Below, one piece after another: positions 421 to 21,245 of a stretch of 21,245 bases of DNA; positions within the stretch are counted from its first letter, which is position 1; each line of letters opens with the position of its first letter. The notes beneath the pieces were generated by a model. That model saw nothing but the letters and a program-made list of their open reading frames with translations. It searched no databases and was not told the origin of the DNA. The stretch spans positions 1 to 21,245 of the forward strand of contig JAIQCW010000246.1 in the NCBI GenBank assembly GCA_020283715.1, written 5' to 3'. A program made the translations under genes and the position numbers. The stretch comes from Cytauxzoon felis (lineage: Eukaryota; Apicomplexa; Aconoidasida; Piroplasmida; Theileriidae).

Positions 421-885
421 CCACTCGATGTCCAATCGATGTCCAATCCCACTCTTCTTCCCACTCGCCGTGGAGGCTCATTTATTTATTTCCCCCTCCG
501 GCTCCCGTATATCGCTTACAGGTGTTACAATTTAGATATAATAATTACACTCACCTAAACCACACATACCCCATAATAATGGGGTTAATGCACTATAATT
601 TTCCACTTTTTAACCGTCTACTGAAGATTCGTCTTTTACAATAACATATACTATTATAATAATACAATTGAAGGATGATGTATAGTTGTATGAAGGTATA
701 TATGTTACAATCATCATTAGATTGTTAAAATGTAGTGTAAATGGTGTTTATTATCCCGACATTTCTGGGGTAAATATGAAGATATTGAATGGACCTCAAG
801 TGGACTACCGAGGATGATCTACGGGAAGCGGAGGGGGAAGTAATTGGGAGAACTGTCTGCAAGGCCTACGGTGGAGGAGAGTGGA
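421..885. repeat. Dispersed palindromic element, copy 1 (two B arms in inverted orientation)
   Basis: The left arm (about 421-522) has CCACTCGCCGTGGAGGC, then TTTATTTCCCCCTCCGG, i.e. reverse-complemented B. The right arm (about 791-885) has GGACCTCAAGTGG, GGGAAGCGGAGGGGGAAG and CTGTCTGCAAGGCC, i.e. forward B. No A arm is seen. The arms enclose about 270 bases of AT-rich sequence in which I recognise no gene. Together they fill most of the gap 400-984 between the first two genes. The arms could pair into a long hairpin. Confidence 0.85.
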
Positions 886-984
886 GAATACAGTACACAT
901 AAACATAAAATTCGTGGATTATACTTCAAATTATGTGTAATTATACTTCATTAGATTAGTAATGTTTTCCGGATTTTTTCGAAA

Positions 985-2497
985 TCAGTTGTTGATATTA
1001 ACTTTCTTATTTATATGGTTGAGTATCCAATCTCTTGTGGTGTTATTTTTCTGCCTCTTTTCTCTCTTCAATTCTTCTTCTTGTTTGCGTTTGGCTTCTT
1101 CTTCGACGGTGATGAATGGATTGGAATAGATTATTGTCTGTAATATTTTTGGAGGGTTCTTTGGTCTTTCATCATCATCTACTTTCATGGCTGACCATTT
1201 CTTTAAAATATCTACACCGCCAACAACTTTACCGAATACAGTATGTTTGTTATCCAGGTGTTGACATGTACTAAATGTAATGAAAAATTGTGAACCATTT
1301 GTATGTTTCCCTTTATTAGCCATTGATACTACACCTAATCCGACATGACATAATGTATTATCAAATTCGTCTCTAATAAATTGTGGTACAGATTCGAGTC
1401 CATCACGTTTAGCTCTGGTATAAAATGAACTTTCGCCACCACGTCCTGTACCTGTAGGGTCACCACCCTGGATCATAAAATTGGGAACACATCTATGGAA
1501 TATTGTATCATTATAATAACCATCTTCACAATGTTGAAGGAAGTTATCACAAGTTAATGGTACTCTATCAGTATGTAATACTATATTTAAATCACCATCA
1601 CTTGTTACCAACTTGACATAAGCCTTGAGTTTGCCTTTTTTAACTGCATCATATAATGGTTCCCTAACTTCAAATACTGTTTTATTGCGATACTCTACAT
1701 TATAAGATACATCCATCGCAGTTGATGTAAAACTGCTGGCCTGAGAACCTGTGGTATACAATTCATGTTTAGGGCGATTATTCACTGGTTTTGGTGTTTC
1801 CTTGAAAATTTTGCTGTGATTCTTAACCAATTCACCTGATTTATCCATATTCTTCATAATATTATTGTACATTTCATCTCCAGATATCGTCTGGACACTA
1901 GTCTTTTCATCAACTGAAAACAGAGTACTTAAATGTTTAAATGAGATTATTTTGCGATGTTCTAAATCATGAGGATTTTGTAGTGTAATAATATCTGATT
2001 TAGTAAAATTTTCACCTGAATATACAATGTTAGATGAAGATTGAGGTATTCTCACCTGTATGAGGGTCGTGCATAAATCCATCAGCTTCTTTCTTTGCAA
2101 CTTCCTTCAGTGTAGCATAACTGTAGACATAACCGCTTTGTTTTACTGCAACAACATGCGAACTTGTTGTGAATCTTTTGAGAGACAGTGGACAATAGAA
2201 CTCGCCATCATCATCTTTGGTAAAAATGAGTGGATACAGATCATCAAGTGACAATGGTTCATCATTTACTGGATTTTTTCCATGTAATGTAATATATTCT
2301 TTAATTGCATCATGATCAAATACATGACCCTTAATGGTAGATACTGGTTTTTTGAATGGTTGTAGCGTCAAGAAACATGAATTGAGAGGTACTTGTTCAG
2401 ATGGTCGTTTATTTATGGTTGGTCCTTGTGTTAATGCTAATTCAGAGGGTAATAAATATAATTTATCTTTACTATGCCTATGTTTACTACCACCCAT
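985..2497 (-). CDS. U-box cyclophilin-type peptidyl-prolyl isomerase (PPIL2/CYC4 type)
   Basis: Two exons, complement(2056..2497) and complement(985..2015), joined over a 40-nt GT-AG intron, give 490 residues (human PPIL2 is of similar size). Joining restores DPHTGENFTKSDIITLQNP, which matches the family at the junction. Residues about 38-150 form the modified U-box region (CFLTLQPFKKPV, then FYCPLSLKRF and VVAVKQSGYVYSY). Residues about 278-445 are a cyclophilin domain: TIFHRCVPNFMIQGGDPTG carries the catalytic Arg, and SQFFIT and KHTVFGKVVGG follow. At the cyclophilin A Trp121 position there is His (CQHLDNKH), as expected for a member insensitive or weakly sensitive to cyclosporin. The tail is charged (EEEAKRKQEEELKREKR). 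PPIL2 relatives act in the nucleus with the spliceosome and can have ubiquitin-ligase activity. The start is the first ATG (MGGSKHRHSKDK), 101 bases from the divergent neighbour. Confidence 0.95.
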
Positions 2498-2598
2498 TGT
2501 TTTAGGTAATATTTATACTGAGTCCACATATACAATACTATATTACTACAATATCATTATAAATTTTATATATATTAAATTTATTATATAGATTATGA
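2498..2598. promoter_or_regulatory. Short divergent intergenic region, presumed shared promoter
   Basis: These 101 very AT-rich bases separate the starts of the U-box cyclophilin (-) and the helical-repeat gene (+). Both promoters and 5' untranslated regions must lie here or inside the neighbouring genes. I see no defined motif. This is inferred from position only. Confidence 0.35.
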
Positions 2599-5500
2599 AT
2601 GATAATTATTTATTATTATAGATTAATATGGTTTATTTATATTCAAAGATTTCTATTTACACATTCATTGTCTTTTATTTTAAAGACTTCTGGGAATGGT
2701 TCATTGTTAAAAATTACTAATCAACTTAGGAATCCTATTAGAGATTATTCTTATGATGATAAACCTCTTTTATTGGCTCAGAATAAAGATCCTGGTAAAG
2801 AGAATGAGGTGATATTATCTACAAGTGAGACACATGGTATAAATAAGATTCTTCATGATTATACAAGACAATCGCATATAAATGAACCTTTATTTAAAAA
2901 AGGTTCTATTGCTTATATTAATAATGGATTGTATGTTTTTATACATGTATATATAATGATTTATTTTATAGTTTTCGTTCTACAAGATGTACAGTATTAG
3001 ATATTAAACCTTCTCATATAGGTGATCCTTATATGGTAATACAACTCTCTCTATATATAATAATAAAAAAATAGGTATTAGTTTCATTAGATTGTAGAAA
3101 TTCTGATGGTATTATAAGAGATGGTTTATCTAAATATCATGGTACATCAATATGGTTAATGGAAACAGATTTAGTTGATAATAAAATATTTAATCCATTA
3201 ACAGCACCAGATTTAAGTAGAAGAAAAATAATAAATAATAATAATAATAATAATAAATCATCAAATATTCTATCAATATATTTATCTAGGATAATAAATA
3301 CAATAATAATATCAGAAATAGAAGATTTATATTATAATATTATATCTAAAGATATGAATTATATGTTAACACCATTTACATGTATAATTCAAGTAGCTAG
3401 AGGATTTTTAAATAATAAAAATATAAATTTATTTTTAAGTAAATTTTATAATGATTTATTAAATCATATAAAAATTTTTATAAAAAATTATATAAATAAA
3501 TTAGATTATAAAACAATAGCATGGACTATATGGTCATTTGGTGTATTATATAATAATAGTTTATCTAATCATAAAAATATAATAAAATTATGTATAAATA
3601 ATATTGATAAATTATATTTAAAATATAATAATATAAAATTATATGAATTAAATAATTTATGTTTATTAATTTGGTCATATGGTATATTACCATTTGTTAA
3701 TAAACGTTTTTTATATGATGTAGCACATTATTTAACTGATTTATCAATAGAAGATATACCATTAAATGTATGTTGAAATTAGAACAATTTTTTCCCTCAT
3801 TTTATATTATAGAATTTAAGTACATTATCATATAGTCTTTATAAAAAAAAAATTATTAATAAAAAATTTATGGATAAATTAAATGATTTTATACTCGATT
3901 ATTCATTTAAAATATCATTAACAACAGCACCATCTTTTATAGCATTATTTTCTTTATTATATAATGATTATACAAAAGTTATTGATAAACTTGCATCTAT
4001 TATTTTCTCAAATGAAGGAAATAATTATCAATTAAATCGATTTACAAAAGATGTATGTTGTATATTAAATATAATTTATATATACCCCATATTTCAGAAT
4101 TTATCATTATTATTAGCTGGTATTATAAATAATCCAGATTATCTCAATATATTTCAATCATATATATATGCTGAATCACCAAAAATTTTCCCAAGACAAT
4201 TAGTAGATTGCCTAGATTTATTCTTGAAGCATAATTTAAATAAACACCCACTACAACAATGGCTACTCAAATATGTATGTATCAAAATGTTCAACCTCTT
4301 CTTCAATACATTTAATATTAATTTTTCATTAGGTTATAGATAATAAAGAAAAATTCAATGACTTTCTCATATTCAAAATAATGCATTATGTAAGCTTTAT
4401 GAATAAATACCCAATCGGATTCGATGAAATGATTTATAATCGCCTAAAACAATCAAAGTATGATAAATCAATACACCCACATAATCATACAGACCCAATA
4501 TCAAAAGAATCCCATACATTGTCAAAACACTATTATCAATGACCAGAAACTTCCCAAACTTCAAACATGATATCTATAACGGTACGTTCGAGATATACCA
4601 ACTATAATTTGTCATACCTTCATTCTTTACCTGAAGTCCAATCCACGTCTGATCCCACTCGCCTCCACCGTAGGTCCTGCCGTCAGCTCTTCTATTTAGT
4701 TGTCCCTCCGCTTCCCTGAGATCAGCTACGGGTTCCACTTGAGGTCTCCACTCGAGGTCAAAATCACTAACATCTTTTTACCTCTAAAATTTGAAGGAAT
4801 TTCATCATTTCTGGGGAAACTACTGGAAATATCTCAATGAATAATGGATGTATTCCTGATCTCAATACTTCATTGAAGAGAATTTGATGATTCTTTGAAT
4901 TTACTCATCCTCATTTCATTCCAATTGATATTCATTGAGATATCCTCACAAACATAGATTCCATCACTTTAGTCATATCTCGCTGAAATAAGGTTTATAA
5001 CCTCAAGTGGAAGTGGAATACCTGGAAGCGATCTACGGGAGCTGGAAGGGGAAGTAAATAGAGAAGGCCACCACGGCGAGTGGACGACTTCAGGTGGAAC
5101 TTCGAGTGGAATAAGAGTATGAATGGATATCAGTTGATTTTTAATCTTAAGTCAATTCATATATAATCTACAGTGATTTTCAAGTATTTTGAAGATTCTG
5201 TTTACAGTATTGGGTCATTTAGAAATGGTTTTTTGAATACGTTCTTGCCATCGTTATCACAATTATGGTTATTTAATGACATTGTTAATGATTTTAGTAC
5301 TAAATTCCCGAAAATTACAAGATCATTTATATCATTTCTACATAATAAATTTGATAAAATACAGAAATATACTATTGGAATTAATATGATTCATATCGCT
5401 AACATCTTTAAAGATATATTCAACAAAGCATCTTTAAACATTAAAGAAGGAAGAAATATACAAGTTAACAAATCAAATGAAACATCCACAGAAGGTTATA

Positions 5501-6021
5501 CAACCTCTGTTCCCACTGCCGTGGAGGCTTCTTACAATTCACTCCCCGTAAACGGTGAAGCCACTCCCGGAGATCGTGGTGAAGATGAAGATGTAGATGA
5601 TTTGGAATCAAGTGAAAGTGAAGATACAATAGATGAATTATTAGCGAATATAGTTACCAATGATGAATTGGATTTACTGGTTTCTGGGATATTATTAAAA
5701 ATGAAACATGACATGATGAATTTATCACATGTAAACGACTATAAATTTATTTATCCATACCTTCTTGTATTGGTACGTTTTATAAAGTGCTAAATTTACA
5801 CACCATAGACAATGGCTAATATGCATAATGATTTAAATTATAACGACATATACAACATTACCAAATTACATCTCGGAGATTTAAACAATTCCGATATTAC
5901 AATGCTACACGATGCACTCCGTCAATCTTCCAAATTCGATGGCAAATGGAAAAAATTAATCATCGATAAACCCAAAGGAATAAATCAAATCACCAATGAA
6001 CCCGGAAACATACATGAATGA
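2599..6021 (+). CDS. Helical-repeat protein, OPR/RAP-like, probably organellar RNA binding; nine exons
   Basis: My splice model joins 2599..2930, 2972..3035, 3075..3767, 3813..4052, 4098..4274, 4333..4457, 4493..4581, 5174..5772 and 5809..6021. Every junction is GT-AG and in phase, giving 843 residues. Eight introns range from 35 to 592 nt; the 592-nt one contains a dispersed repeat. Helical motifs such as TIAWTIWSFGVL and LNNLCLLIWSYGIL, spaced about 40 residues apart, resemble the octatricopeptide-type repeats of apicomplexan RAP and FASTK-like proteins that act on mitochondrial or apicoplast RNA. No RAP domain is seen. A run of seven Asn codons lies near 3235-3256, and one repeat arm is translated in exon 8 (residues about 684-710). 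The N-terminus is hydrophobic and basic; the start at 2599 is tentative. Reading exon 6 to the TGA at 4540-4542 without splicing would lose the in-phase continuation NIKRIPYIVKTLLSMTRN. The family assignment is inferred from pattern only. Confidence 0.75.
3229..3256 (+). repeat. AAT trinucleotide run coding for polyasparagine
   Basis: A near-perfect AAT run within exon 3 of the helical-repeat gene encodes seven consecutive Asn after RRKII. Asn runs of this kind are typical low-complexity inserts in AT-rich apicomplexan genomes and are probably length-variable. Confidence 0.8.
4629..5110. repeat. Dispersed palindromic element, copy 2, inside intron 7
   Basis: The left arm (4629-4759) is reverse-complemented B with the alternative end cassette GTCCTGCCGTCAGCTC. 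The right arm (5001-5110) is forward B, ending in CCACGGCGAGTGG and CAGGTGG. About 240 bases of AT-rich sequence lie between them. Like copy 1 it has two B arms and no A arm, so it has no orientation. It accounts for nearly all of the 592-nt intron (4582-5173) in a gene whose other introns are 35-58 nt. Confidence 0.85.
5503..5583 (+). repeat. Dispersed element, copy 3, single A arm translated in exon 8
   Basis: CCACTGCCGTGGAGGC is followed by GCCACTCCCGGAGATCGTGG. Only the A arm is present. It is read in frame in the sense orientation and gives a diverged ASYNSLPVNGEATPGDRG, followed by an acidic stretch (EDEDVDDLESSESEDTIDE). This is the most degenerate exonic copy, which suggests an older insertion. 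Confidence 0.8.
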
Positions 6022-6034
6022 AAATAACAGAAGC

Positions 6035-6314
6035 CCACCTGAGGTCCAATCCACCTCTCGTTGCCACTAGCCGTGGAGGCTCCTCTATTTACCTTCCTCT
6101 AAAGAGTATAGCCACTCCCAGAGATCGTGGTGAGGGTAGTGATGAAGTTAGTGATGGATCATCCATCATGGGAATGATGGAAGATGGTGCTAAGGATGTA
6201 GTGAATTGGACCTCAAGTGGACTACCCGTAGCTGATCTCAGGGAAGCGGAGGGACAAGTAAATAGAGGAGGCTCCACGCCTAGTGGAAGGAGAGGTGGAC
6301 TGGACCTCAAGTGG
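6035..6314 (+). repeat. Dispersed palindromic element, copy 4, complete (A arm then B arm), intergenic
   Basis: This is the cleanest full copy, about 280 bp. It has the terminus CCACCTGAGGTC at 6035, the cassette CCACTAGCCGTGGAGGC, arm A ending GAGATCGTGG near 6130, an 80-base spacer, arm B from GGACCTCAAGTGG at 6208, the cassette GGCTCCACGCCTAGTGG and the terminus GGACCTCAAGTGG ending at 6314. It lies between two convergent genes. Arms A and B share one open frame (SSIYLPLKSIATPRDRG ... LPVADLREAEGQVNR), although no gene is established here. Confidence 0.9.
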
Positions 6315-6371
6315 AACACGACTTCTACTAGATGTATATTCCTTCCTCCCTCCCTTGTGTTACACAATCCT

Positions 6372-7871
6372 TCATTCAATTTTCATGCTGTTTAGTCCAT
6401 GTATGGAGTCTTGTTGAATAATATTGTCAAAAACCCGTGTACTGGGAAGTAAATCGCATGTTAATCTTGCTTCTTGTTCTTGTTCTTGTTCTTCTAATTT
6501 ATTTCTTGCATCATCAATGAATTTATGTGCTTGTAGATATTTCAATTCATCTTCAGTTAGATTAACATCTCTAATACGTCTAGTTAAATCTAATTTACCA
6601 TTGATTAACAATAAATCAAATAAATCATCAGTTTGATAATCATCACCAGTTAATTGTAGAGATGATGGATCATTACATGTATTTGATGGAAAGGTCAAAT
6701 TCTTAGATTCGAAATTACTCATCAACTTCTTGAAACCCTTTTCAATATTCGACAAGATGTTACCTGAAGGGACACCTGTATCAGAAGGTTGAAACATGTT
6801 GATACAATCTGAATTAATATTATAATTTACATTCTCATCCTCCTCATTACATGAAACCTGTTTTGTTATGAATTTATCAGAAGTGAAGTTTACCAGAGTT
6901 TCCATCGCGCCTCCACCTAGGTTGATCATTCCGTTGCCACTTGAGGTCCTGCCGTCAGCTCCTCTAATTACTTCCCCCTTCGCTTCACGTAGATCAGCTG
7001 CGGGTTCCACTCGAGGTCCAGTACTATTCTTCATTCCACTTGAGGTTACAGTCACTACCTTCTCACCGCCACGATCTCTGGGAGTGGCATCACCCTTTAG
7101 GGATAGGTAATTAAAAGAGCTGTCTGCAAGACGGGCCCCGAGTGGAGAAGAGTTGGATTGAATCTCGGTGGAAGTGAAAGGATTAGTTGTTGTAGGACCA
7201 AGTTTGGAGATGAGAATAGAGGTATTTACAACATCAGGTGAGTTGTTGGATTTATCATCATCTGGACTTCTTTCAATTTCTTCTGCATTATTTTCGTTAA
7301 TTTTCATCCCTTTGACATCATTACTTGTATTATTTAAATTCAAATGTGATAGTAATTTGATGATAATTTCTTCATTAGCTTCACAGATTTTCATGATATT
7401 CAAGAGTTTTCCATCGATACCGTATAGAATAGATTCAATAGTTGGTCGTTTATGATCTTTAGGTTCCATCATTCTTGGTGGATTTGGATTTTTGGCATGT
7501 GAAGTTTGACGTTTAAGTTGAGTAATAAATGACATTGATGGTGTAATAAGTCTTCTATTATACATTGCAAATCCATCATCATCATTAACATCATAAGATG
7601 TACCATTTGGTATAGTAGAATATTCATAATGTTGATGATGTATAGGATTATTATCCCATCTCATTGGTGGATATCTTGTATCATTATTATAATAATTAGT
7701 ATTATTAATATAATGCATTGGTGATTTAGGCATTGTCATTTTAATTTTACCACTATCATTAATATATTGTTGTTTGAATACAGGATTTAATATAGTCCTA
7801 TCATCTTTAGGTATACAACAACCTAAAGGTGATGTATTATTCATATTCTTAATATGAGTTTGTTGTATCAT
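6372..7871 (-). CDS. Unrecognised 499-residue protein with an in-frame repeat insert
   Basis: A single open frame runs from ATG at 7871 to a stop at 6372. I recognise no family. The N-terminal part (residues 1-115) is rich in Asn, Tyr, Met and Pro (SPMHYINNTNYYNND). Residues about 150-185 look helical (TIESILYGIDGKLLNIMKI). Residues about 238-325 are an in-frame copy of the dispersed element. After it the protein is acidic and Asn-rich, then has a short helical segment (LTRRIRDVNLTEDELKYLQ), and an EQEQEQEAR coding run. There is no signal peptide or membrane segment. It shares direction with the 1391-residue gene upstream, 110 bases away. A cytoplasmic or nuclear low-complexity protein is the most that can be inferred. 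Confidence 0.7.
   Translation of the reverse strand: MIQQTHIKNMNNTSPLGCCIPKDDRTILNPVFKQQYINDSGKIKMTMPKSPMHYINNTNYYNNDTRYPPMRWDNNPIHHQHYEYSTIPNGTSYDVNDDDGFAMYNRRLITPSMSFITQLKRQTSHAKNPNPPRMMEPKDHKRPTIESILYGIDGKLLNIMKICEANEEIIIKLLSHLNLNNTSNDVKGMKINENNAEEIERSPDDDKSNNSPDVVNTSILISKLGPTTTNPFTSTEIQSNSSPLGARLADSSFNYLSLKGDATPRDRGGEKVVTVTSSGMKNSTGPRVEPAADLREAKGEVIRGADGRTSSGNGMINLGGGAMETLVNFTSDKFITKQVSCNEEDENVNYNINSDCINMFQPSDTGVPSGNILSNIEKGFKKLMSNFESKNLTFPSNTCNDPSSLQLTGDDYQTDDLFDLLLINGKLDLTRRIRDVNLTEDELKYLQAHKFIDDARNKLEEQEQEQEARLTCDLLPSTRVFDNIIQQDSIHGLNSMKIE
6912..7160 (-). repeat. Dispersed palindromic element, copy 5, translated in the 499-residue protein
   Basis: This is a full copy in the orientation of the gene. 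Arm A reads SSFNYLSLKGDATPRDRGG and arm B reads EPAADLREAKGEVIRG. The end cassettes are of the CTGTCTGCAAGAC and CTGACGGCAGGAC type. Both arms are in the host frame. The opposite strand is closed at the A arm by a stop, as in other copies. Confidence 0.88.
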
Positions 7872-7981
7872 TAGAAATAATATTTATATTTAATATTTAT
7901 ATTAATAATAAATTAACATCTTGAACCATTATGGTTCTCAAGTTCACTGTTGAACAATATTATTATGTAATTTTAGTGATA

Positions 7982-10900
7982 TTAGCATGCATTATTTAAC
8001 TTTATATCATGTAATAAAAATTCTTTAGCTCTACTATCATAAAAATCTATACATTCAAATCTATTAATAATAATATTAATAGATATATCAATCAATTGTA
8101 ATATATATTCTATCATCTCATCATTCTCTAAATCTAATTGTCTATAATGATTCTTTAAATATATAAGAGGGCCCACAATTGAAATTAATCTTTCTATAGA
8201 ATAATATTGTAATTTGTCATATATAAACTTTAAAGCCTTATAAATTACATCATGACATGATAATTCACATAAAACATTCAAAAGAACAGATGGATAATTC
8301 TCATATAATTGAATTATATCGTCATCCATTACTTCCATAGATGAATGCTTAAATAATCTACTAAGCATCTCAATTGAAATGTCATCCACTCCACCTGAGG
8401 TCCAATCCACTTCTATCCCATCTGAGGCTACAATCCAACTATCCTTCCCATTGCATGGAGCTCCACCTGAGGTCGTCCTGCCGTCAGCTCTCCACTTGAT
8501 GTCTAATGCACCTTGTCTTCCACTAGCCGTGGAGGCTCCTCCAATTACATCCCCCTCAAACTCCCGTAGATCGTTTTCGGGTAATCCACCTGAGGTTACA
8601 TCCACTAGGTTAGAGGTATGTTCTTCCGGGTTAACATATTTTGTTCTTAGGGGTTGATATTTTACGTTATTCCGGGTTAACATTCTCTGTTCCTCCGAGT
8701 AGAATTCTCTGTTTTTAGTGGTAGACATTTTTTTTATTCTTCCGGGTAATTCCTGTTCTTCCGGGTTAACTTCGCCACGATCTCCGGGAGTGGCTATACT
8801 CTTTAGAGATAGGTAATTAAAAGAGCTCTCTGCAGGAGAACGAAAGGTGGATTGGATTTCAGGTGTTGATATTATTAGATTATTGAGTATTATTTTACAA
8901 TAATTGAGCATGATTTTGGTTTCGGTAATTTGGAATAGGTTGTATATGGGTAGTTGTAATTGTTTTATATGTGATGATAGGATATTGAAGAATATTTTAA
9001 GTACATTGATGAATGATATGAATGTATGACGCCATTGTATATTATTGAATGCTTTAGTTAATAAATTTGAATTATTATATTTGATATCATTTAATAAATT
9101 AAAATTTGTAAAAAAATCTAAACGTTTATTTAATAATCCATTGAAATATATTAAATCCCATATAAAATCTGATCTATTATTGATCCTAGATAATGTATAG
9201 AATGGATATAATAAATGTCTAATATTAATTATAATATTTATAATTTGTTGTTCATTTAATTTATATATTAATGGTATTATAGAATATTGTATATGATTAG
9301 ATACAGTATATAAAAACATTCCATTTAAATCTAATTTTAATATAAATAATGATATTAATGATAAATTTGGTTTATAATATATAAAATTATTATTAGTACT
9401 ATTATAAAATTCATTATCTTCATTTAAATATGGTAAATGTTTATTATCCAGGAGTAAACATTTAGGTACAATAAAATTTAATATTGATATTATATTATCA
9501 ATATTATAATAAGATGATGTATGTAATAAACGATTATATAAAGATGATAAAATATTATAATCTAATTCATTATAATCTATAAATCTACTATAATCATTAA
9601 TTATATATATACAATTAGCAATATCTATACATCTAAAACCATTAACATTTAAAAAATCCATAACCTTATTATAATCTATACTTTTCTCATCCAAATTTTT
9701 ATAATTATCAACAACTAAACCATTCATATATTCATCCAACCAACCATCCATATTAATAGCCTCTTTCAAATTAATCTCATGCGATTTATTAAAACATCTA
9801 TATATATTCTCAATATGATATAATATCACCAATTCATCAAAATCCATATTAATAACATCATTTATTGTACCAGTAACTCCACCTCTTCCACTAGGCGTTT
9901 CACCTGAAGTCTTTCCACTAGGCGTGGAGCCTTCTTTATTTACCTCCCCTTCCAGCTCCCGTAGATCAGCTACGGGTTGTCCACTTGGGGTCTCCACTTG
10001 AGGTCTATTAACAAGATTACGTTCTTCCAGGTTGATAAATTTCGTTTCTCCGGGTAGAATTCCTGTTCTTAGGGGTTGATATTCTTCGTTCTTCCGGGTT
10101 GATTTTTTCTGTTCCTCCGGGTATAATTCTCTGTTCTTAGGGGTAGACATATTTCCTGTTCTTCCGGTTTGACCACTTGATGTCTGTTCTTCCGAGTAGA
10201 TATTGCCAGGATCTCTAGGAGTGGCTTTACTCTTTAGAGATAGGTAATTGGAAGAGCTGACGGCAGGATGGACCTCGGTGAAGGAGCTGTCTGCAGGACC
10301 TCGAGTGGAACGCCTAGTGGGATCAGAGGTGGTATAAGATGAGGTGGTATAAGATGAGGTGGATTGAACCTCAGGTTGGGAATTATCATCTGTTTGTAAT
10401 GTTAATCTTCTGAGTGAATTTATAAAGGGATAATAAGTTTGATGTTTCAGTGTAATATAATCTTGAGGGTATAAATCATTATAGCGTTTTATGACGACAT
10501 TATTGCAATTGACGATAAAATTTAAAATTTTATTACATGGAAGTATAGGAGCAAATTTATTTTCAATTAAATTTAATAAACTGTTATAAATCAATGGGAT
10601 CTGATCCTTGTACGTTATAAAAATATCATTTTTCTTAAGTGATTCCTCATCAAAATTCAATTTACCAGGTAATCTCCATGGCATATTACCGATTTTTATA
10701 TTGCGATTCCATAAACGCTTAAATTCAATCCTATAATGTACCGTAGATATCAAAAACTCCGAATTACATAACGCGAAGGCACTCAACAAATCAAAGGCAG
10801 AATCATAATCAAGATCATTACATACACTCGATGTTCTACCTGAGGTCGTCTTGCAGACAGCTTCTCCACCTGAGGTCTTTCCACTAGGCGTGGAGCCCCT

Positions 10901-12157
10901 TCTATTTACTTTCCCCTTCGCTTCCAAGAGATCAGCTACGGGTTCCACTTGAGGTCCAGTACTAATTCCACCTTCTCTTCCGCCACGATCTCCGGGAGTG
11001 ACTTTACTCTTTAGAGATAGGTAATTGGAAGAGGGCTCCACGCCGAGTGGGAAAGGAGAGGTAACCTCAGGTGGAGAGTTATCTATAGAGCTGCTATTTT
11101 CATTTAATATTTTCATTGTGTATGTTTCAAAATTTGTTAAGCATACGAGTGGTTCATTTAATGCGATAGAAATGGCTTTGGTATAGAATTCTACAAAATT
11201 TGGATCTTTGGACAATTTGAAAAATGATTTTAGACAGAAGACTATTTCTGTTAGGGTTAATTCATTTATTCGTTCATATAATGTACCGAATATGACATCA
11301 TTGATCTTCTTAATTGGATATTTAATATTTGTGAATGATTTGAGTACTATAATAATATCCTGAGTATTAACACCATCTGGATATCTTGATGTCTTACCAC
11401 CTAACATCAAATCATAAAATACAAGACCCAATATATTAATAAATGGTCCATATCGTGATTTAATCTTACCATATACATCTATAGCAGCAGCGATATCACA
11501 TGGATTGAATTCATGAAGTTGAGATTGTAATGATAATAATAATTTATTACGAACATCATGTACTAATAATCCAGCATTATCTAATACTAACAAGACAGTT
11601 AATGCCTGCTTCAATGTAAATCTGTGATAATTTAATAACGTCTGGATACGATTTTGTATGGAAATTAATGCTTCTCTATCCACTAAATTATGCTTCAAAT
11701 TATAACTCTTCAAGTATAAATACAGGTCTTTTACAGTAAAATCATACGAAAAATTCGGTAAATTATATATTAGACCAAATATAACCTCATCCACAGATAA
11801 TTTATCAACCTCCATCTCTACTTTAACCAAATCACCAGTCACCTTACACTTTTTAAATAGAAATACACTGTTATTCAATGGTTTCTGGATAACACAATCC
11901 TCCCTAAAGTCCAAATCAATGTAATCCTGAGTAGAATCATCTCTACCAATCCAATCCCGTCTAGGATCATCCAAAGGTAATCCTTTATCCCTAACCGATT
12001 CCTTCGAGCGATTAATATCGTAATAGTTAAATTTTACATCATCCTTTTGAGCAGAAGTATCAACAGCGGTGCTATATCCGAATCGACGGTTGAATTTGTA
12101 AAGTCTCAATTGGTTAATATAGCGATAAATTCTAGTAATATTGAAAGATTCCTTCAT
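7982..12157 (-). CDS. Large helical-repeat protein, OPR/FASTK-like, probable mitochondrial RNA-binding protein
   Basis: A single uninterrupted frame of 1391 residues starts at ATG 12157. The N-terminus (MKESFNITRIYRYINQL, then RLYKFNRRFGYSTA) is basic, aromatic and nearly free of acids, like a mitochondrial presequence with a possible cleavage after RRFGYS. Residues about 95-350 are successive amphipathic helix pairs (VDEVIFGLIYNLPNFSYDF, FTLKQALTVLLVLDNAGLL, TEIVFCLKSFFKL), the pattern of OPR/RAP-type proteins; helices resume at about 800-1090 and 1275-1391. No RAP domain is visible. Three dispersed-repeat copies interrupt it at residues about 361-442, 594-760 and 1099-1256, together about a quarter or more of the length, so the ancestral protein was perhaps 950-1000 residues. 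Alternatively the inserts are spliced out; transcripts would decide. It is divergent from CK2 beta. Confidence 0.78.
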   Translation of the reverse strand: MKESFNITRIYRYINQLRLYKFNRRFGYSTAVDTSAQKDDVKFNYYDINRSKESVRDKGLPLDDPRRDWIGRDDSTQDYIDLDFREDCVIQKPLNNSVFLFKKCKVTGDLVKVEMEVDKLSVDEVIFGLIYNLPNFSYDFTVKDLYLYLKSYNLKHNLVDREALISIQNRIQTLLNYHRFTLKQALTVLLVLDNAGLLVHDVRNKLLLSLQSQLHEFNPCDIAAAIDVYGKIKSRYGPFINILGLVFYDLMLGGKTSRYPDGVNTQDIIIVLKSFTNIKYPIKKINDVIFGTLYERINELTLTEIVFCLKSFFKLSKDPNFVEFYTKAISIALNEPLVCLTNFETYTMKILNENSSSIDNSPPEVTSPFPLGVEPSSNYLSLKSKVTPGDRGGREGGISTGPQVEPVADLLEAKGKVNRRGSTPSGKTSGGEAVCKTTSGRTSSVCNDLDYDSAFDLLSAFALCNSEFLISTVHYRIEFKRLWNRNIKIGNMPWRLPGKLNFDEESLKKNDIFITYKDQIPLIYNSLLNLIENKFAPILPCNKILNFIVNCNNVVIKRYNDLYPQDYITLKHQTYYPFINSLRRLTLQTDDNSQPEVQSTSSYTTSSYTTSDPTRRSTRGPADSSFTEVHPAVSSSNYLSLKSKATPRDPGNIYSEEQTSSGQTGRTGNMSTPKNRELYPEEQKKSTRKNEEYQPLRTGILPGETKFINLEERNLVNRPQVETPSGQPVADLRELEGEVNKEGSTPSGKTSGETPSGRGGVTGTINDVINMDFDELVILYHIENIYRCFNKSHEINLKEAINMDGWLDEYMNGLVVDNYKNLDEKSIDYNKVMDFLNVNGFRCIDIANCIYIINDYSRFIDYNELDYNILSSLYNRLLHTSSYYNIDNIISILNFIVPKCLLLDNKHLPYLNEDNEFYNSTNNNFIYYKPNLSLISLFILKLDLNGMFLYTVSNHIQYSIIPLIYKLNEQQIINIIINIRHLLYPFYTLSRINNRSDFIWDLIYFNGLLNKRLDFFTNFNLLNDIKYNNSNLLTKAFNNIQWRHTFISFINVLKIFFNILSSHIKQLQLPIYNLFQITETKIMLNYCKIILNNLIISTPEIQSTFRSPAESSFNYLSLKSIATPGDRGEVNPEEQELPGRIKKMSTTKNREFYSEEQRMLTRNNVKYQPLRTKYVNPEEHTSNLVDVTSGGLPENDLREFEGDVIGGASTASGRQGALDIKWRADGRTTSGGAPCNGKDSWIVASDGIEVDWTSGGVDDISIEMLSRLFKHSSMEVMDDDIIQLYENYPSVLLNVLCELSCHDVIYKALKFIYDKLQYYSIERLISIVGPLIYLKNHYRQLDLENDEMIEYILQLIDISINIIINRFECIDFYDSRAKEFLLHDIKLNNAC
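8391..8864 (-). repeat. Dispersed palindromic element, copy 6, translated, with a nested module
   Basis: Sense orientation in the 1391-residue gene. Arm A (about 8765-8864) reads SSFNYLSLKSIATPGDRG and arm B (about 8520-8600) reads LPENDLREFEGDVIGG. Between them lies a separate module of about 170 bases made of GTTCTTCCGGGTT-like units. Beyond arm B the left end carries extra end cassettes (CGTCCTGCCGTCAGCTC and CCACCTGAGGTC repeated). The whole block is open in the host frame. Confidence 0.85.
8605..8775 (-). repeat. Nested TTCTTCCGGGTT short-repeat module, copy a
   Basis: On the + strand there are repeated units such as GTTCTTCCGGGTTAAC, GTTCTTAGGGGTTGATA and GTTCCTCCGAGTAGAATTC. On the gene strand these read as NPEEQ, STTKNREFYSEEQ and YQPLRTK. 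The same set in the same order occurs in copy 7 at about 10018-10205, so the two inserts share an internal sequence not found in other copies. Confidence 0.8.
9879..10379 (-). repeat. Dispersed palindromic element, copy 7, translated, with a nested module
   Basis: Sense orientation in the 1391-residue gene. Arm A reads SSSNYLSLKSKATPRDPG and arm B reads QPVADLRELEGEVNKEGS. The end near 10320-10370 has a small tandem duplication of GAGGTGGTATAAGAT. It is the longest copy because of the nested TTCTTCCGGGTT module between the arms. Confidence 0.87.
10018..10205 (-). repeat. Nested TTCTTCCGGGTT short-repeat module, copy b
   Basis: Units such as GTTCTTCCAGGTTGATA, GTTCTTAGGGGTTGATATT, GTTCCTCCGGGTATAATTC and GTTCTTAGGGGTAGACAT. 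On the gene strand they read STPKNRELYPEEQ, YQPLRTG and NLEERN. This is homologous to the module at 8605-8775, with the same unit order. Confidence 0.8.
10836..11075 (-). repeat. Dispersed palindromic element, copy 8, translated
   Basis: A compact full copy in sense orientation in the 1391-residue gene. Arm A reads SSNYLSLKSKVTPGDRGG and arm B reads EPVADLLEAKGKVNRRGS, followed by STPSGKTSGG from the cassette CCACTAGGCGTGG. Termini are CCACCTGAGGTTACC-like. Both arms are in the host frame. Confidence 0.88.
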
Positions 12158-12460: not shown

Positions 12461-13675
12461 ATGGAGGAGGAGTATACAGAGTGGCAAGAATTTAGCTCTG
12501 ATTCGTGCGAATCTCTCAAATGGATTCCATGGTTTACATCACTGGAAGGGCATGAATTCTTGGTTGAAGTATATTTTAAATTTTATATAAATTTCATCAT
12601 ATTTATAGGTATCAGAAAGTTTTATAAGGGATCAGTTCAATTTGAGCGGTCTAAAGTCACTTAAAAATTACAATGGTGCAATGAGTATGATACTAGGCCC
12701 CGCTCCTACAGAAGAGGTCTTCATGGATAGTAAATTCTTAGAACTATATATGAATGCAACCGATCTATATGGTCTCTTACATTCACGATTCATCACTACG
12801 CCAGCTGGCCTTTCCATCATGGTTAGTTCTAAACGAACACAGTTAATGAACTCTTGTCTACCGAATCTTCACATCCTTCTACCTTCAAATCATACTCTCT
12901 GTTCCACTCCACCTGAGGTCCAATCACTACCTTCCTTTTCCACTCGCCATGGAGGCCTTCTTTATTTACATCCCCCTCCGCTTCCCTGAGATCAGCTACG
13001 GGTTCCACTTGAGGTACAATCACTAACCTCTCACCGCCACGATCTCCGGGAGTGGCTTTACTCTTTAGAGATAGGTAATTAGAAGAGCTCCATGCAATGG
13101 AAAAGATGGACCTCAGGTGGAACGGCGAGTGGATGACAAGGATTGGACCTCTGGTGGAGTCTTGTCTATATGACAATTATATGTATAAAAACATGTTACA
13201 CAATCTATGTTTGGCATTGTATTAAATTTCATTTCATTAATTTTAATTTTATAGAAGGAGAAATATCAACAGGGTGTATTTGGTCAATGTCCTAGGGTAC
13301 AATGTCAGAGACATAATGTATTACCGGTTGGATTTAGTGATAATTTGCATAATCATCGTATAAAGATTTATTGTCCTAGATGTCAAGAGGCTTATGTAAT
13401 AAGATCTGGTGAAGTTCATGCTGATATTGATGGTGCATTTTTTGGAAGATCATTTCCACATTTATTTTTATTGACATTTCCACAACTTATACCAGATGAG
13501 GCACCTGTACCATTTATACCTAAGATTTTTGGGTTTAAAGTTCATAATATTAATTCATTGATCAAGGTGAAGTTAGAAAATGTAAGTTTATAGGTTGATA
13601 TTTATTAATAATAAATATTATAATTTTCAGGGTGAATTTGGTGAATTAAATAAAGATACATCGCAAATAAGATGA
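12461..13675 (+). CDS. CK2B: Casein kinase 2 regulatory subunit beta
   Basis: Four exons (12461..12568, 12609..12821, 13255..13581, 13631..13675), all GT-AG and in phase, give 230 residues (human CK2 beta has 215). Family landmarks: WIPWFTSLEGHEFLVEV, IRDQFNLSGL, the helix DLYGLLHSRFI, KYQQGVFGQCPR, and the zinc finger with Cys119, Cys124, Cys147 and Cys150, whose spacing (5, 23, 3) equals that of human Cys109/114/137/140. DGAFFGRSFPHL and PKIFGFKVH complete the C-terminal fold. The beta subunit dimerises through the zinc finger and docks the CK2 catalytic subunits, choosing substrates. The acidic loop of the human protein is reduced here (PAPTEEVFMD). Intron 2 (433 nt) is enlarged by a dispersed repeat in antisense; introns 1 and 3 are 40 and 49 nt. 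Confidence 0.97.
12904..13158 (-). repeat. Dispersed palindromic element, copy 9, antisense in CK2 beta intron 2
   Basis: A full copy whose A-to-B direction is opposite to the host gene. On the - strand it keeps one open frame through both arms (SSNYLSLKSKATPGDRGG ... EPVADLREAEGDVNKEG) although it is intronic. On the + strand the A arm gives stops in all three frames (TTTAGAGATAGGTAATTAG). Termini are CCACCTGAGGTC and GGACCTCAGGTGG. Confidence 0.9.
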
Positions 13676-13850: not shown

Positions 13851-14882
13851 ATGGTTAACTTGACTATACCTAGATTTAAACAAAAGGTCTGTGATGCCTT
13901 GGTTATGTTTGGTCTACATGTAAATAGAATTCCATTTGTATCGCATCCAGGTACATAAATTATCATATCAAATATAATATTTTTAAAAAATTATTATATA
14001 GGTGTAATGGCATTAGCACAATTACTTGAAATGAAATCTTTAGTTGAGCATCGCGCTCATTTCACACAAGAAGACGTTAATAGAATGTATGAACATGATG
14101 CAACACTAGCAGAGGTAAAAAAAATCATTTCATCCTCAATATATCATTCATATAGAAAGCACAAGTAGCTCTAGATCATGATCTACCAATCTCTCATTAT
14201 AATCTAGAATATCTCAACAAACCAGGTATTTAACACATACAAACATTCCACTCGAGGTTACATCTACCTCCTTTCCACTCGCCGTGGTGGCCTCTTCTAT
14301 TTACTTCCCCCTCAAGTTCCCGTAGATCACTTTCGGGTTCCACTCGAGGTCTCCACCTGAGGTCCAATCACTAACCTCTACACCGCCACGACCTCTGGGA
14401 GTGGCAATACTCTTTATAGATAGGTAATTAGAAGAGCTGACGGCAGGACGAAGAGAGTTCGATTGGACCTCAGGTGGAAGGCCTAGTGGGATGACCTCGA
14501 GTAGAGTTGGAAAAGATGTATTGATATTATTTGTGGATATTTATTGTTATTTTAATTATATATAAATTTAATTTAGGTTTTTTAGAGAGGTTATTAGAGG
14601 AGAAGAGATTGAATGAGCAAATTGCTAAGGAGGTTTTATCATCACCACCTGGTGATTATACACCTCCAGCTTCATTAAAGCATTATGTAGCACCAACTGT
14701 AAGTATCTTATTAATAATTATATATATATATATATAAATAGGTACCTATTGAATGGAGACAACATGAATTAGCAGTTACAAAATTAATGGTAGATGTTCA
14801 ACCATCTTTATTGCGTGAAATGGAGACGCAGGCGAAAATGAGAGAATTTATAGAGAAGCATAAAGAAAAATTAAAAGTTTAA
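13851..14882 (+). CDS. Conserved-looking 181-residue protein of unknown function, five exons
   Basis: Exons 13851..13950, 14002..14114, 14156..14225, 14577..14698 and 14742..14882 join in phase at GT-AG sites to give 181 residues. The start ATG follows a run of A and opens MVNLTIPRFKQKVCDALVM. The protein is hydrophilic and helix-rich (MALAQLLEMKSLVEHRAHF, FLERLLEEKRLNEQIAKEV), with a Pro-rich middle (SSPPGDYTPPASLKHYV) and a basic tail (IEKHKEKLKV). I do not recognise the family; no signal peptide or membrane segment is seen. A small organellar complex subunit is conceivable but unsupported. Introns 1, 2 and 4 are 41-51 nt; intron 3 (351 nt) carries a dispersed repeat. Its stop lies five bases from the stop of the convergent neighbour. 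Confidence 0.82.
14248..14503 (-). repeat. Dispersed palindromic element, copy 10, antisense in an intron
   Basis: A full copy in intron 3 of the 181-residue gene, opposite to the gene direction. On the - strand arm A reads SSNYLSIKSIATPRGRGG, but arm B falls in another frame, so the A-to-B reading frame is lost here. Cassettes are GTGGCGAG/CCACTCGCCGTGG at one end and CTGACGGCAGGAC at the other. Confidence 0.88.
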
Positions 14883-14887
14883 AAATA

Positions 14888-15781: not shown

Positions 15782-15857
15782 TTCTAAATATGACTTATAT
15801 CATTTTATATATCTAATTATTAGAGGAATTATGGTAATATTGTCATGAGAAGAGTAT

Positions 15858-16520: not shown

Positions 16521-16643
16521 GTTTACAATCTCACATATCCATATAGATCGCCGACCATACAAATGAAGAAGATTACATCAAGGGGAGGTTGTAGACGGAT
16601 ATGGCCTATTAACAAGCTAATGTATTACTGAGGTGTTGTCTAC

Positions 16644-16858
16644 TCCACCTGAGGTTACCTCCACCATAGGTCGTCCTGCCGTCAGCTCTTCTATTTACTT
16701 CCCCCTCCGCTTCCCTGAGATCAGCTACGGGTAATCCACTCGAGGTCTTATCCTCAACACTACACTTCAGCCACGATCTCAGGGAGTGGCTTCACTCTTT
16801 AGAGATAGGTAAATAGAGGAGCTGTCTGCAAGACGACGTCAGATGGAATGGCGAGGTG
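16644..16858 (-). repeat. Dispersed palindromic element, copy 11, intergenic
   Basis: A full copy in the 484-base gap between the convergent RNase H2C and membrane-protein genes. On the - strand arm A begins SSIYLSLKSEATP and then meets a TGA where other copies have CGGAGA, so the conserved frame is broken. Cassettes are CGTCCTGCCGTCAGCTC and CTGTCTGCAAGACG. The rest of the gap is AT-rich with nothing recognised. Confidence 0.88.
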
Positions 16859-17004
16859 GAGTGTATAACATATAATGAATATTTTTAATTAGATTAAAAT
16901 TATAATGCCTAAGGGCATTAAAAGACTGCATTAAGATAGGATTTAAAATTTAAAACTACATTTTATAACATCTCAGGAGTATTATTCGTGTATTTTACTC
17001 CACT

Positions 17005-19170: not shown

Positions 19171-19240
19171 TCCACCGAAGGATCTTTCATTATTTTCACC
19201 ATTAGCCATGGAGGCTTCTTATATTTCCCTCCCCCTACCA
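19171..19240 (-). repeat. Degenerate fragment of the dispersed element, copy 12
   Basis: CCACCGAAGGATC, then CACCATTAGCCATGGAGGC and TTCTTATATTTCCCTCCCC resemble the end cassette and the start of a reverse-complemented B arm. The rest is lost. It appears to be an old decayed copy. Confidence 0.6.
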
Positions 19241-19463
19241 TTTTAACCACATAGTTCATGGCACATGGTAAATTACTATGTATGATCACCACCATTATCA
19301 GGTAAACAACTTTTACCACCATCCTTTCCTAGTAACTATACATATATAGTGAATTTAAAAAACACCATTAACCTTGGGTTATAGGGCGAATACACGATAA
19401 TTTTTCACACTACTAATGTCAATTGAAGATATATACATGAATATAATATACACTCACATATTA

Positions 19464-19511
19464 ATACAATTGAAGGAAGATGTATACTTGTATGATGATA
19501 TATTGATGTAT
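19464..19511 (+). repeat. Second copy of an intergenic sequence found at 661-708
   Basis: AATACAATTGAAGGA, then GATGTATA, TTGTATGA and TATAT occur here and at 661-708 with the same spacing and few differences. Both sites lie in AT-rich intergenic DNA near a member of the Tpr-like family. They are not part of the palindromic element. The rest of 19241-19714 is simple AT-rich sequence in which I see nothing else. Confidence 0.55.
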
Positions 19512-19714
19512 TAATATATATAATTATTACAATATATATAGTATATAACTACTAACATGAATTGGATATTATATAGTAACTATATTATACTAATAATAAT
19601 ACTAATTATATATACTTTAATAAAATTATTATAATATTATAAGAAGATTGTAAATGATTGAAAGAAGATATTTATTGTATTTAAATTAAGTAATTTACTT
19701 ATTATTAGAGTACT

Positions 19715-19805
19715 GGACCTCAGGTGGAACCCGTAGCTGATCTCAGGGAAGCGGAGGGGGAAGTAAATAGAGAAGGCCTCCACGCCGAGTGGAATGATTA
19801 GGTGG
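19715..19805 (+). repeat. Dispersed element, copy 13, single B arm
   Basis: GGACCTCAGGTGG, GGAACCCGTAGCTGATCTC, GGGAAGCGGAGGGGGAAG and GGCCTCCACGCCGAGTGG form one well-preserved B arm with its cassette and no partner arm. It lies 80 bases beyond the stop codon of the helical-repeat gene at 19885-20986. Copy 3 is the reciprocal case with only an A arm. Confidence 0.88.
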
Positions 19806-19884
19806 AGCTGAATACAGCGATTGAATCTAAGGTGATATAGTCTCCGGTTCCTTCGATCACTTTGTTCTTTGAAGAGAGTAAATT

Positions 19885-20986
19885 TCATTTATATTTATCA
19901 ATTAGGTGTTTGATCATATTGTATGATTTATGATTGATATTTGATGTTTGTGGTTCATTGTTTGTTAATTTATATATAGCATTGATAATGTATTCATCTA
20001 ATGATGTTTCATTTAATTCTTTTAATCCGTATGCGATTAGACCTAATTCTCTAAGATTGAATTGATCTTTTAATTTAATGAAATTATTATTGATATAATT
20101 TAAATCTAATGATAATTTCCATTTACCGATTATATATATAAGCTATAATGATATTAATATTAATATTTATATAACATACATTAGCGAATTGTATACAATT
20201 TATATTATCATATGATGTTAATTTACCCAACATTAATTCTACAATTGAATAATCTGGGGTATAATTAATAAATTTTTTTAAAAAAATAGGGGGAGAATAT
20301 TAATTTACCTTTTAATTTTAATTTTAATAATGAAGATAAGATGAATAATAATTGTTGTGTATCGGCTAAATGATATTTTGATTCTATTAATTTTATAATT
20401 TTATTTAATAATTGGGCATTAATAAATGATAATGTCATACCATTTAATATAATAGATAATTGATGTATTGATGCCTATAAAAAAGTATATAATATGTAAT
20501 GATAAGATATGAATATACCCATTCAATACATATAATAATATGTTGTGATAATGATGAAATATAATCATTTTTTAATTTATATGATGATTTACTAATTGAA
20601 TTAAATAATGAAATCATTGATCTTAAATCCATAATATTGAATTTATTTAATGAATCTAATATAAATGGTGATAAAATATCATATATATTATTATCATTAT
20701 TAAAATTATTTAATACATCTACTAATATCATAGAATAACCTTGAGGTGTTATACTGTCTCTATACTTTAATAATTCATCCAATAATTTTATAATCATATC
20801 CCTATCCTTAAATTTACAATAAATACCAATCAACTAAATATTAAATAAAATTTTTATAACAATAACATACCAATATCAAAGGATATGAATACTTTACAGT
20901 CGTCAATTGATCCAATACACGAATCCTAAATTTCATCACTATATCCTCATCACATACACCCATTCTGTCCAATGCATACAATATAC
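19885..20986 (-). CDS. Helical-repeat protein, OPR/RAP-like, 3' part (5' end beyond window)
   Basis: On the - strand the exons are 20986..20871, 20833..20519, 20474..20309, 20253..20180 and 20142..19885. All junctions are GT-AG and in phase over introns of 37, 44, 55 and 37 nt. About 309 residues are visible, all short helices rich in Leu, Ile and Asn (MIIKLLDELLKYRDSI, YSMILVDVLNNFN, LRSMISLFNSISKS, ELGLIAYGLKEL), the same type as the protein at 2599-6021. No RAP domain is seen before the stop (LIDKYK). An acceptor at 20987 (GATTATATATAG) shows that at least one exon lies further upstream, so the element from 21016 on is probably intronic. The family is assigned by repeat pattern only. Confidence 0.78.
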
Positions 20987-21015
20987 CTATATATAATCAA
21001 ATATACAACTACATT

Positions 21016-21245
21016 CCACTTGATGTCCAATCTACTCTACTTGAGGTCCAATCCATCTCTCTTCGTCCTGCAGACAGCTCTCCACCTGAGGTCTTCCCAC
21101 TCGCCGTGGAGGCCTCTTCTAATTACCTATCTCTAAAGAGTAGAGCCACTCCCGGAGATCGTGGCGAATGTAAGAATGTATTAGATTGGACCTCAAGTGG
21201 AGAACCCGAGAACGATCTCAGGGAGTTTGAGGGGGAAGTAAATAG
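21016..21245 (+). repeat. Dispersed palindromic element, copy 14, cut by the window end
   Basis: Arm A then arm B on the + strand, opposite to the host gene, in what appears to be an intron. It has both cassette types in tandem (CGTCCTGCAGACAGCTC, then CCACTCGCCGTGG). The frame is intact through both arms on the + strand: SSNYLSLKSRATPGDRGE ... EPENDLREFEGEVN. The right end lies beyond the window. Confidence 0.88.

Follow-up and report, generated by a model that had tools for sequence, protein, structure and literature searches.

Likeness to Rickettsia palindromic elements in a high-copy, modular hairpin element from the nuclear genome of Cytauxzoon felis

Short palindromic repeats that lie in frame in unrelated genes, where they encode a conserved peptide, are described from Rickettsia as Rickettsia palindromic elements (RPE), which are reported to be about 150 bp long and to fall into ten families, with 44 insertions in R. 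conorii (PMC10969869). In Amoebophrya, an alveolate parasite, hairpin-forming repeats in genes (introners) are reported to have spread in the manner of transposable elements, and their authors ruled out transposase-mediated mobilization as the general cause (PMC7789003). Inverted repeats within eukaryotic protein-coding genes are also described from the mitochondria of Nematomorpha, where the coding palindromes are perfect, and of Magnusiomyces, where the palindromic elements are reported to be bypassed in translation (PMC6649704). MITE and foldback DNA transposons combine inverted arms and an internal core with high copy number and the absence of mobility coding.

The C. felis element analyzed here has features of each of these systems. 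It shares with RPE the short palindromic form, the in-frame position in unrelated genes and the encoding of a recurrent peptide but, unlike the bacterial elements, it is nuclear and eukaryotic, forms about 3,700-5,000 clusters, has modular ends and several architectures, and occurs in introns too. Because the host is eukaryotic and the comparison is one of description, the element is not filed as a member of RPE. Amoebophrya introners are spliced introns, whereas coding copies in C. felis are in frame and, for the antigen cf76, present in cDNA. In contrast to the mitochondrial repeats, the element is nuclear, imperfect and dispersed. It appears to differ from MITE and foldback transposons in its modular, ragged ends, and neither a target-site duplication nor a transposase was seen. 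It is very probably a high-copy, non-autonomous, modular hairpin element that works in the way of RPE.

The repeat is real and genome-wide in C. felis. Profile HMMs of its two arms (A and B) identified 153 arm clusters in a sample of 261,245 bases drawn from seven stretches, among them the window (the whole 21,245-nt stretch of DNA that was first analyzed), at densities of 0.30-0.80 clusters per kb. Neither model matched five Markov-shuffled copies of the sample at E <= 1e-3. A 15-mer from arm B occurs 1,544 times in the genome, which implies about 3,700-5,000 clusters, and the reversed control 15-mer does not occur at all. Repeated 11-mers, counted as those that occur at least 8 times and contain 4 or more G/C, account for 10.6% of the sample, compared with 0% of one shuffled copy. 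As the first-pass annotation had stated, the element is richer in GC than its surroundings (52% inside repeated-11-mer sequence, 31% outside). That annotation had described a modular, palindromic, non-autonomous-looking repeat in a compact piroplasm genome, and the data support this description. By its own account, the description would fail if the copies arose only by local duplication or belonged to a known repeat family. The sampled clusters and genome-wide 15-mers show that the element is not a local duplication, no Rfam family reached the gathering score in the window, and the literature searches turned up no description of it. When the element peptide was sought among about 5.8 billion proteins with 111 residues of the 503-aa window protein, 426 candidates of 0.55-1.75 times the query length were returned, none at E <= 10.

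The element is GC-rich and is built of short palindromic modules, whose stems covary, in an inverted arrangement. The shared modules reported at first pass are present, and the orientation of the four module types is inverted about the element center in 282 of 283 occurrences. At least two architectures, a diversity that had escaped the first-pass annotation, are built on the common arms: class I, the most frequent form, consists of arm A, a linker and arm B, and class II/III of two B arms around an AT-rich core. In 18 elements with B- and B+ arms and a core of over 150 nt, the arms form terminal inverted repeats around the core. Ten of these 18 elements share a conserved AT-rich core of ∼275 nt, which thus has ten copies in the 261 kb, each flanked by a B- and a B+ arm; an HMM built from these ten cores recovered the ten and no further copies. 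Element ends are ragged, and module number is variable.

Hairpin-forming palindromic character was evident from both covariation and predicted folding. The arm A stem yielded 36 double-compensatory cells, compared with 0-12 in slid registers, and the arm B stem 123, compared with 1-22; for a third module, no register that was run gave more than 2 compensatory cells. The stems are short, with good pairing in 3/6 tested columns for arm A and 5/11 for arm B. The mean folding z was -3.18 for 74 elements and -0.06 for 60 controls. Pairing of arm A with arm B as a conserved long-range foldback was not supported: the complementarity of arm A to arm B of the same element (12.54) was not above that to arm B of other elements (12.33; p = 0.2), both exceeding the value for shuffled arm A (7.64). 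Only local hairpins are thus maintained.

Within the window, 16 arm clusters (0.75 per kb) make up 13 elements, three of which are two-armed foldbacks. The first-pass annotation had listed about 14 copies. Each of its starts lies 14-128 nt from an HMM-detected arm, but the number is 13, because two clusters it did not list (808-860 and 5019-5084) are the right arms of the foldbacks beginning at 421 and 4629, and those at 19199-19238 and 19729-19793 belong to a single foldback. The foldbacks, to which no strand is assigned, lie at 421..890 (HMM-matched arms B- 461-523 and B+ 808-860 around an AT-rich core), between an ORF at 1-399 (+) and a cyclophilin-RING gene (-); at 4629..5112, with a plus-strand reading frame on each side (class II; B- 4679-4733, ∼275-nt AT-rich core 4735-5011, B+ 5019-5084); and at 19171..19812, where there is no long ORF (arms B- 19199-19238 and B+ 19729-19793 around an AT-rich core of 491 nt). 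The core segment 579-701 of the first is 72% identical to 19381-19503, and the 491-nt core of the third (19171-19812) is 78-82% similar over 327-359 nt to cores on C158 and C162.

The other ten window elements are of class I. On the plus strand, a partial copy at 5503..5590 (arm A only, 5521-5579) is in frame in a 208-aa ORF (5167-5793), and the element at 6035..6320 (A 6076-6130, B 6223-6287) is open in frame 0 within an ORF at 6018-6395 whose gene assignment is uncertain. Those on the minus strand at 6912..7165, inside the 503-aa ORF 6372-7883 (-), and at 8386..8870, 9879..10380 (both with long linkers) and 10836..11085, inside the 1395-aa ORF 7982-12169 (-), are all in frame and sense. The casein kinase II (CK2) beta gene (+) has the element at 12899..13160 (-), antisense to it, in one of its introns, between exons at 12609-12824 and 13255-13593 that match CK2-beta residues 25-97 and 99-196, respectively. 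That at 14244..14520 (-) is antisense to a COX30-like gene (+) and probably intronic; the first two exons of this gene match COX30, and those further on, which surround the element, were assigned by eye. The element at 16641..16862 (-) lies outside any long ORF, and that at 21012..21245 (+; A 21106-21165, B 21204-21245) is cut by the contig end, the contig terminating within a copy. The intergenic, intronic and exonic placement noted at first pass was thus borne out by in-frame exonic and by intronic copies, with others outside any long ORF. NCBIfam likened one ORF to TruA and another to Mre11, both below cut-off, as expected of fragments; a PDB search with the TruA-like ORF gave no match.

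The exonic copies proved to be both in frame and sense, which the first-pass annotation had not seen. Of the six frames, a single one is open through arm A of class I: stops occur in 6/94 copies in the coding frame and in 63-92 of 94 in each other frame. Arm B is less clean, with stops in 31/83 copies in the sense frame and 29/83 in one antisense frame, and in none of the 18 class II/III elements is any frame free of stops. Openness of the flanks was judged separately from the element, and the test left out four or five loci close to the ends of the stretches. Where flanks were open for 300 nt or more, all 16 arm-A copies, in 9 distinct ORFs, were sense and read through; at 200 nt or more, 22/23 were sense and 18/23 both sense and read through. 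In-frame insertion in unrelated genes with one preferred frame, by which RPE are recognized, was therefore found here. Sense copies with open flanks that did not read through (4/22 at 200 nt, 6/26 at 150 nt) may be intronic. By the long-ORF rule of the codon-position analysis, 26/153 clusters lie inside long ORFs; the contrast between class I (16/93 in ORFs) and class II/III (0/18) is weak (Fisher p = 0.07). Apparent in-frame stops in arm B of coding copies (6/15 HMM-aligned rows) are read as indel-shifted columns, since no stop interrupts these ORFs in the actual sequence. Besides introns and positions outside genes, class I occupies unrelated genes, where it is in frame and in sense orientation. 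Pfam assigned a named domain to 6/12 element-bearing ORFs submitted, the domains being coatomer gamma, DHHC, helicase C-terminal, metallophosphatase, Nop52 and PSME4-like.

Coatomer gamma carries three element stretches, all missing from the 11 orthologues aligned out of 54 coatomer-type matches. The underlying search scored the 8000 candidates sharing most words and gave 55 matches, of which 54 have adaptin/coatomer domains and the remaining one is cf76, matched through the element. The first stretch falls between residues that are adjacent in the solved chain 5a1u_E, and the element regions have pLDDT values of about 26-42, with confidently modeled segments on either side.

The published antigen cf76 is 100% identical in this genome and has two pairs of arms, both in phase, over residues 211-262 and 584-639. 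An uninterrupted cf76 ORF of 2172 bp is reported to have been amplified from cDNA (PMC3748084), which is also its genomic length; these published data show that both copies stay in the mRNA. Infected-cat serum is reported to react strongly with the C-terminal fragment and more weakly with the N-terminal and central fragments (PMC3748084); the former contains the second copy and the latter two hold the halves of the first. Translation is supported for cf76 only, by serology of fragments and not of the element itself. The C-terminal region is also reported to bear a 30-bp tandem unit, doubled in 10/11 samples (PMC3748084). The sole tandem of that size in this region of the present assembly is a 33-nt unit of element modules, which is probably the published one.

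That copies might be spliced out as introns, their open frames being incidental, is suggested by the copies in introns of CK2 beta and, probably, of the COX30-like gene, and by the hairpin-bearing introners of Amoebophrya, also a parasitic alveolate (PMC7789003). Spliced copies need neither orientation nor frame, however, so the finding that 16/16 copies with 300-nt open flanks are sense and in frame counts against it, as does the full-length cf76 cDNA, a result that concerns cf76 alone. This explanation is very improbable, and for coding copies it is largely refuted. A peptide domain selected for its amino-acid sequence, for example as an immune decoy or linker, and spread by duplication would account for the same peptide in unrelated proteins and in cf76, for the strong serum reaction of the C-terminal cf76 fragment (PMC3748084) and for arm A of coding copies, where the third codon position is the most variable (0.228 vs 0.189 and 0.167). 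In arm B of the same copies, by contrast, the third position is the least variable (0.205), and coding and non-coding copies have similar proportions of synonymous changes among their codon differences (arm A, 0.220 and 0.191; arm B, 0.252 and 0.283; intervals overlapping in both). Codon-position variation and synonymous share thus gave no consistent evidence of selection on the peptide. Long ORFs hold only the 26 clusters noted above, one clear antisense arm-B copy in a long ORF (C37:61898) reads as a different peptide, and the cf76 fragments with halves of the first copy are the less reactive (PMC3748084); an adaptive domain is accordingly improbable. A separate lineage of coding copies was likewise rejected: among the 45 elements in which both arms could be aligned adequately, of which 13 are coding, the nearest neighbor was coding in 23% of cases against 27% by permutation (p = 0.68), and coding and non-coding copies are intermingled.

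Mobilization in trans of a classical MITE or foldback DNA transposon, by a transposase encoded elsewhere or lost, fits the class II/III layout of inverted arms around conserved AT-rich cores, both the ten ∼275-nt copies and the longer ones. The ragged ends and variable module number speak against it, and visual inspection of the flanks of 17/18 B-core-B elements showed no target-site duplication. According to a 2022 survey of 64 genomes, Apicomplexa lack DNA transposon genes and C. felis lacks transposable elements altogether (PMC9141347), and a Merlin survey of 290 apicomplexan genomes reports only possible contaminants (PMC8101967). DDE_1, one transposase family, had no match in the genome, but the search control was equally silent, so this result is little informative. 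Overall, mobilization of this kind is possible but rather doubtful. Retroposition of a SINE-like element, suggested by short length, high number and lack of coding capacity for mobility, is hardly credible given that telomerase was the only gene found by an RVT_1 search of the genome, that no Rfam family matched in the window and that no poly-A tail was seen.

For the RPE-like element favored here, we infer mobility itself, having seen neither a transposition nor an empty allele nor a target-site duplication. Insertion would be roughly indifferent to compartment, and the exonic survivors would be only those copies that landed in sense orientation and in phase, with a length divisible by three, since the added loop would be disordered and tolerated. 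More tentatively, the hairpins might drive propagation through replication, or break repair with template switching, without a dedicated transposase, as the ragged ends, the variable module number and the lack of a visible target-site duplication or transposase suggest. A bolder version, which we regard as unlikely, is that a transposase-free hairpin module invaded the nuclear genome by way of replication or repair events at the palindromes it carries and entered exons as a one-orientation open frame, so that, by extrapolation, hundreds of proteins, including a leading vaccine antigen, would be lengthened by a common disordered peptide and host antibodies may see one shared epitope across many proteins of the parasite. 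We give this version less weight because the two cf76 fragments with first-copy halves were less reactive with serum than the C-terminal one.

Mobile elements are considered scarce in apicomplexan genomes, and none is reported from C. felis (PMC9141347), yet a single modular hairpin family makes up about a tenth of the sampled sequence. Gene prediction in C. felis may be affected through false domains and false paralogy, as are contig breaks, the window contig itself ending inside a copy, and also serology and vaccine work, because cf76 has two copies of a peptide common to other parasite proteins. The element is a eukaryotic nuclear counterpart, in far greater number, of the protein-inserting palindromes of Rickettsia, and its scale, as extrapolated, would open insertion, frame selection and loop tolerance to study over hundreds of natural insertions.

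Models of arm A (61 nt) and arm B (66 nt) were derived from copies in the window and then refined on three stretches: the window itself, C162:1-130000 and C37:1-70000. Search of a 261,245-base sample, consisting of these three stretches and four 10-kb stretches, yielded 258 arms in 153 clusters, and none in five Markov-shuffled copies of the sample. Across the whole genome (8.62 Mb in 181 contigs, the window being contig C143), an exact arm B 15-mer occurred 1,544 times (769 + 775) and the reversed 15-mer control 0 times. The element, which the first-pass annotation had described within the window, is therefore real and genome-wide. The sample is non-random because its contigs were picked from a list of element matches. 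Its 63 occurrences of the 15-mer predict 2,079 genome-wide versus the 1,544 counted, and extrapolation gives ∼3,700 clusters genome-wide when corrected (5,050 uncorrected). Repeated words covered 10.6% of the sample. Contig C143 appears to stop inside an element copy at window 21245, where locus L001 terminates, which suggests that the element broke the assembly at this position.

The 153 clusters comprised 74 simple A+B+ arrangements, 43 solo B, 16 B-B+, 11 solo A and 9 mixed. Eighteen foldbacks of class II/III (B, AT-rich core, B) had a core of >150 nt, and ten elements of this class had in common a core of ∼275 nt (listed pairs 71-84% identical), which in every case lay between a B- and a B+ arm. 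The element is built up as an array of short palindromic modules. Around simple A-B elements, modules of four types stood in one orientation to the left of the element center and in the opposite orientation to the right in 282 of 283 occurrences. In two class I (A, linker, B) copies, the long linker (window 8617-8770 and 10018-10173) is a run of repeated units of ∼23 nt built around GTTCTTCCGGGTTAAC. The peptides include NPEEQ and STPKN, and linkers of a similar kind occur in further copies.

Covariation was present in arm A at columns 28-35 (TA 71, CG 21) and 29-34 (CG 78, GC 13) and in arm B at columns 10-24 (CG 41, GC 27, AT 12) and neighboring columns. Double-compensatory cells numbered 36 in arm A and 123 in arm B in the right register, versus at most 12 and 22, respectively, in slid registers. 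The stems are short, with pairing in at least 93% of rows at 3 of 6 tested columns in arm A and 5 of 11 in arm B. The mean RNA folding z was -3.18 for 74 elements (59% below -2) compared with -0.06 for 60 element-free control stretches (3% below -2), and folding was weaker in coding copies (-2.11) than in non-coding copies (-3.64).

The arm A consensus has a single open frame out of six, encoding ADSSSNYLSLKSKATPGDRG; stops interrupted this frame in 6 of 94 copies and the other five frames in 63-92 of 94. The matching frame of arm B encodes PVADLREAEGEVNR, and 31 of 83 copies contain a stop in it; two antisense frames of the arm B consensus are also open. To avoid circularity, coding flanks were scored from sequence at least 60 nt beyond the arms, with 4-5 of the 153 clusters near stretch ends excluded. 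At flank lengths of 150, 200 and 300 nt, 35, 28 and 19 loci were open on both sides, and arm A was present in 28, 23 and 16 of these. Arm A loci were in sense orientation in 26/28, 22/23 and 16/16 cases and both sense and read-through in 20/28, 18/23 and 16/16 (p = 2e-10, 1e-10 and 4e-13), the chance level being 1/6 for random orientation and frame. As several copies within one ORF are non-independent, a recount per distinct ORF was made and gave 13/21, 11/16 and 9/9 (p = 4e-6, 5e-6 and 1e-7). Open-flank loci without arm A were read through in 4/7, 4/5 and 3/3 cases. All 18 class II/III elements carried stops in all frames, and 17 lacked open flanks on both sides; the formal contrast between class I and class II/III in ORFs was weak (p = 0.07).

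A named Pfam domain was found in 6 of the 12 element-bearing ORFs submitted: coatomer gamma, DHHC palmitoyltransferase, helicase C-terminal, metallophosphatase (Mre11 by NCBIfam, below its cut-off), Nop52 and PSME4-like. In coatomer gamma, three element stretches had no counterpart in 11 aligned orthologues (of 54 coatomer-type matches), the length of the insertion sites being somewhat variable among orthologues, most at the second site, a linker. Query residues 2-185 aligned with residues 89-277 of the solved chain 5a1u_E and residues 346-603 with 276-535; thus, ∼160 residues are inserted between neighboring chain residues. In an AlphaFold2 model from 12 sequences (mean pLDDT 61.1, pTM 0.41), the element regions 193-344, 609-842 and 946-1030 had pLDDT values of ∼26-42, and flanking helices and strands mostly 75-92. 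The third region starts before the Pfam platform domain is complete, the match reaching position 124 of 152. Such values are consistent with disordered inserts but are not proof, because low pLDDT is expected without homologues; insert composition was disorder-like (60% versus 38% disorder-promoting residues).

Within the window, an element lies in one intron of the casein kinase II beta gene (12463-13670) and probably in one intron of a COX30-like gene (13851-14880; PDB 9fq7_4H, E 2.5e-6). The cyclophilin-RING gene showed 56-66% identity to its equivalents in Theileria and Babesia; for B. microti the value was 52%. Two membrane-protein-like ORFs, at 1-399 (+) and 17005-18450 (-, no Pfam match), might conceivably be related to the Tpr/cf63 family, although this is a guess; the latter resembles, by eye, C162 ORFs at about 12.1-13.9 and 47.3-50.5 kb.

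The published C. felis surface antigen cf76 and G000:C114:6540-8708 shared 100% identity across 723 aa. These coordinates match those published for cf76 on its contig, 6540-8711, when the stop codon is counted, and the genome is accordingly taken to be the C. felis assembly. In cf76 (transcription and ANTIGENICITY), element arm pairs lie in phase at residues 211-262 and 584-639. According to the accessible text of PMC3748084, the 2172-bp ORF was amplified from cDNA, and pooled serum from surviving cats recognized the C-terminal fragment strongly and the N-terminal and central ones less so. The second copy lies within the C-terminal fragment, and the halves of the first are split over the other two; because these reacted less, the epitope responsible may lie outside the element. 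The same text describes a C-terminal tandem unit of 30 bp that varies among isolates; the tandem of comparable size in the assembly has a 33-nt unit composed of element modules. In a subsequent vaccine study, cf76 proved less immunogenic (PMC10058880). The portions of the cf76 literature consulted make no mention of a genome-wide repeat. Element arms are also present downstream of cf76, at 4547-5153 of locus L033.

In the accessible part of a survey of 64 apicomplexan genomes (PMC9141347), no transposable elements were reported in C. felis, and MITE candidates were dropped as likely false positives. An RVT_1 search of the genome returned only telomerase reverse transcriptase (G000:C56:73693-74436; Telomerase_RBD E 1.1e-25). 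The literature searched, which excluded most subscription journals, Repbase and Dfam, held no account of the element. In function, the closest counterpart is the Rickettsia palindromic element (PMC10969869); among alveolates, the introners of Amoebophrya come closest (PMC7789003).

An arm B copy at C37:61898 lies clearly antisense within a 1055-aa ORF and encodes a different peptide, which favors tolerance over a selected peptide; a second copy, at C162:12846, is ambiguous (34.5 bits as antisense B versus 14.2 as sense A). Coding copies were no different from non-coding ones in the synonymous share of codon differences, the third codon position in coding copies was the most variable in arm A but the least variable in arm B, and coding copies formed no lineage of their own. 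The data thus fit a single element family with insertion at any location, whose exonic copies persist if the reading frame is kept.
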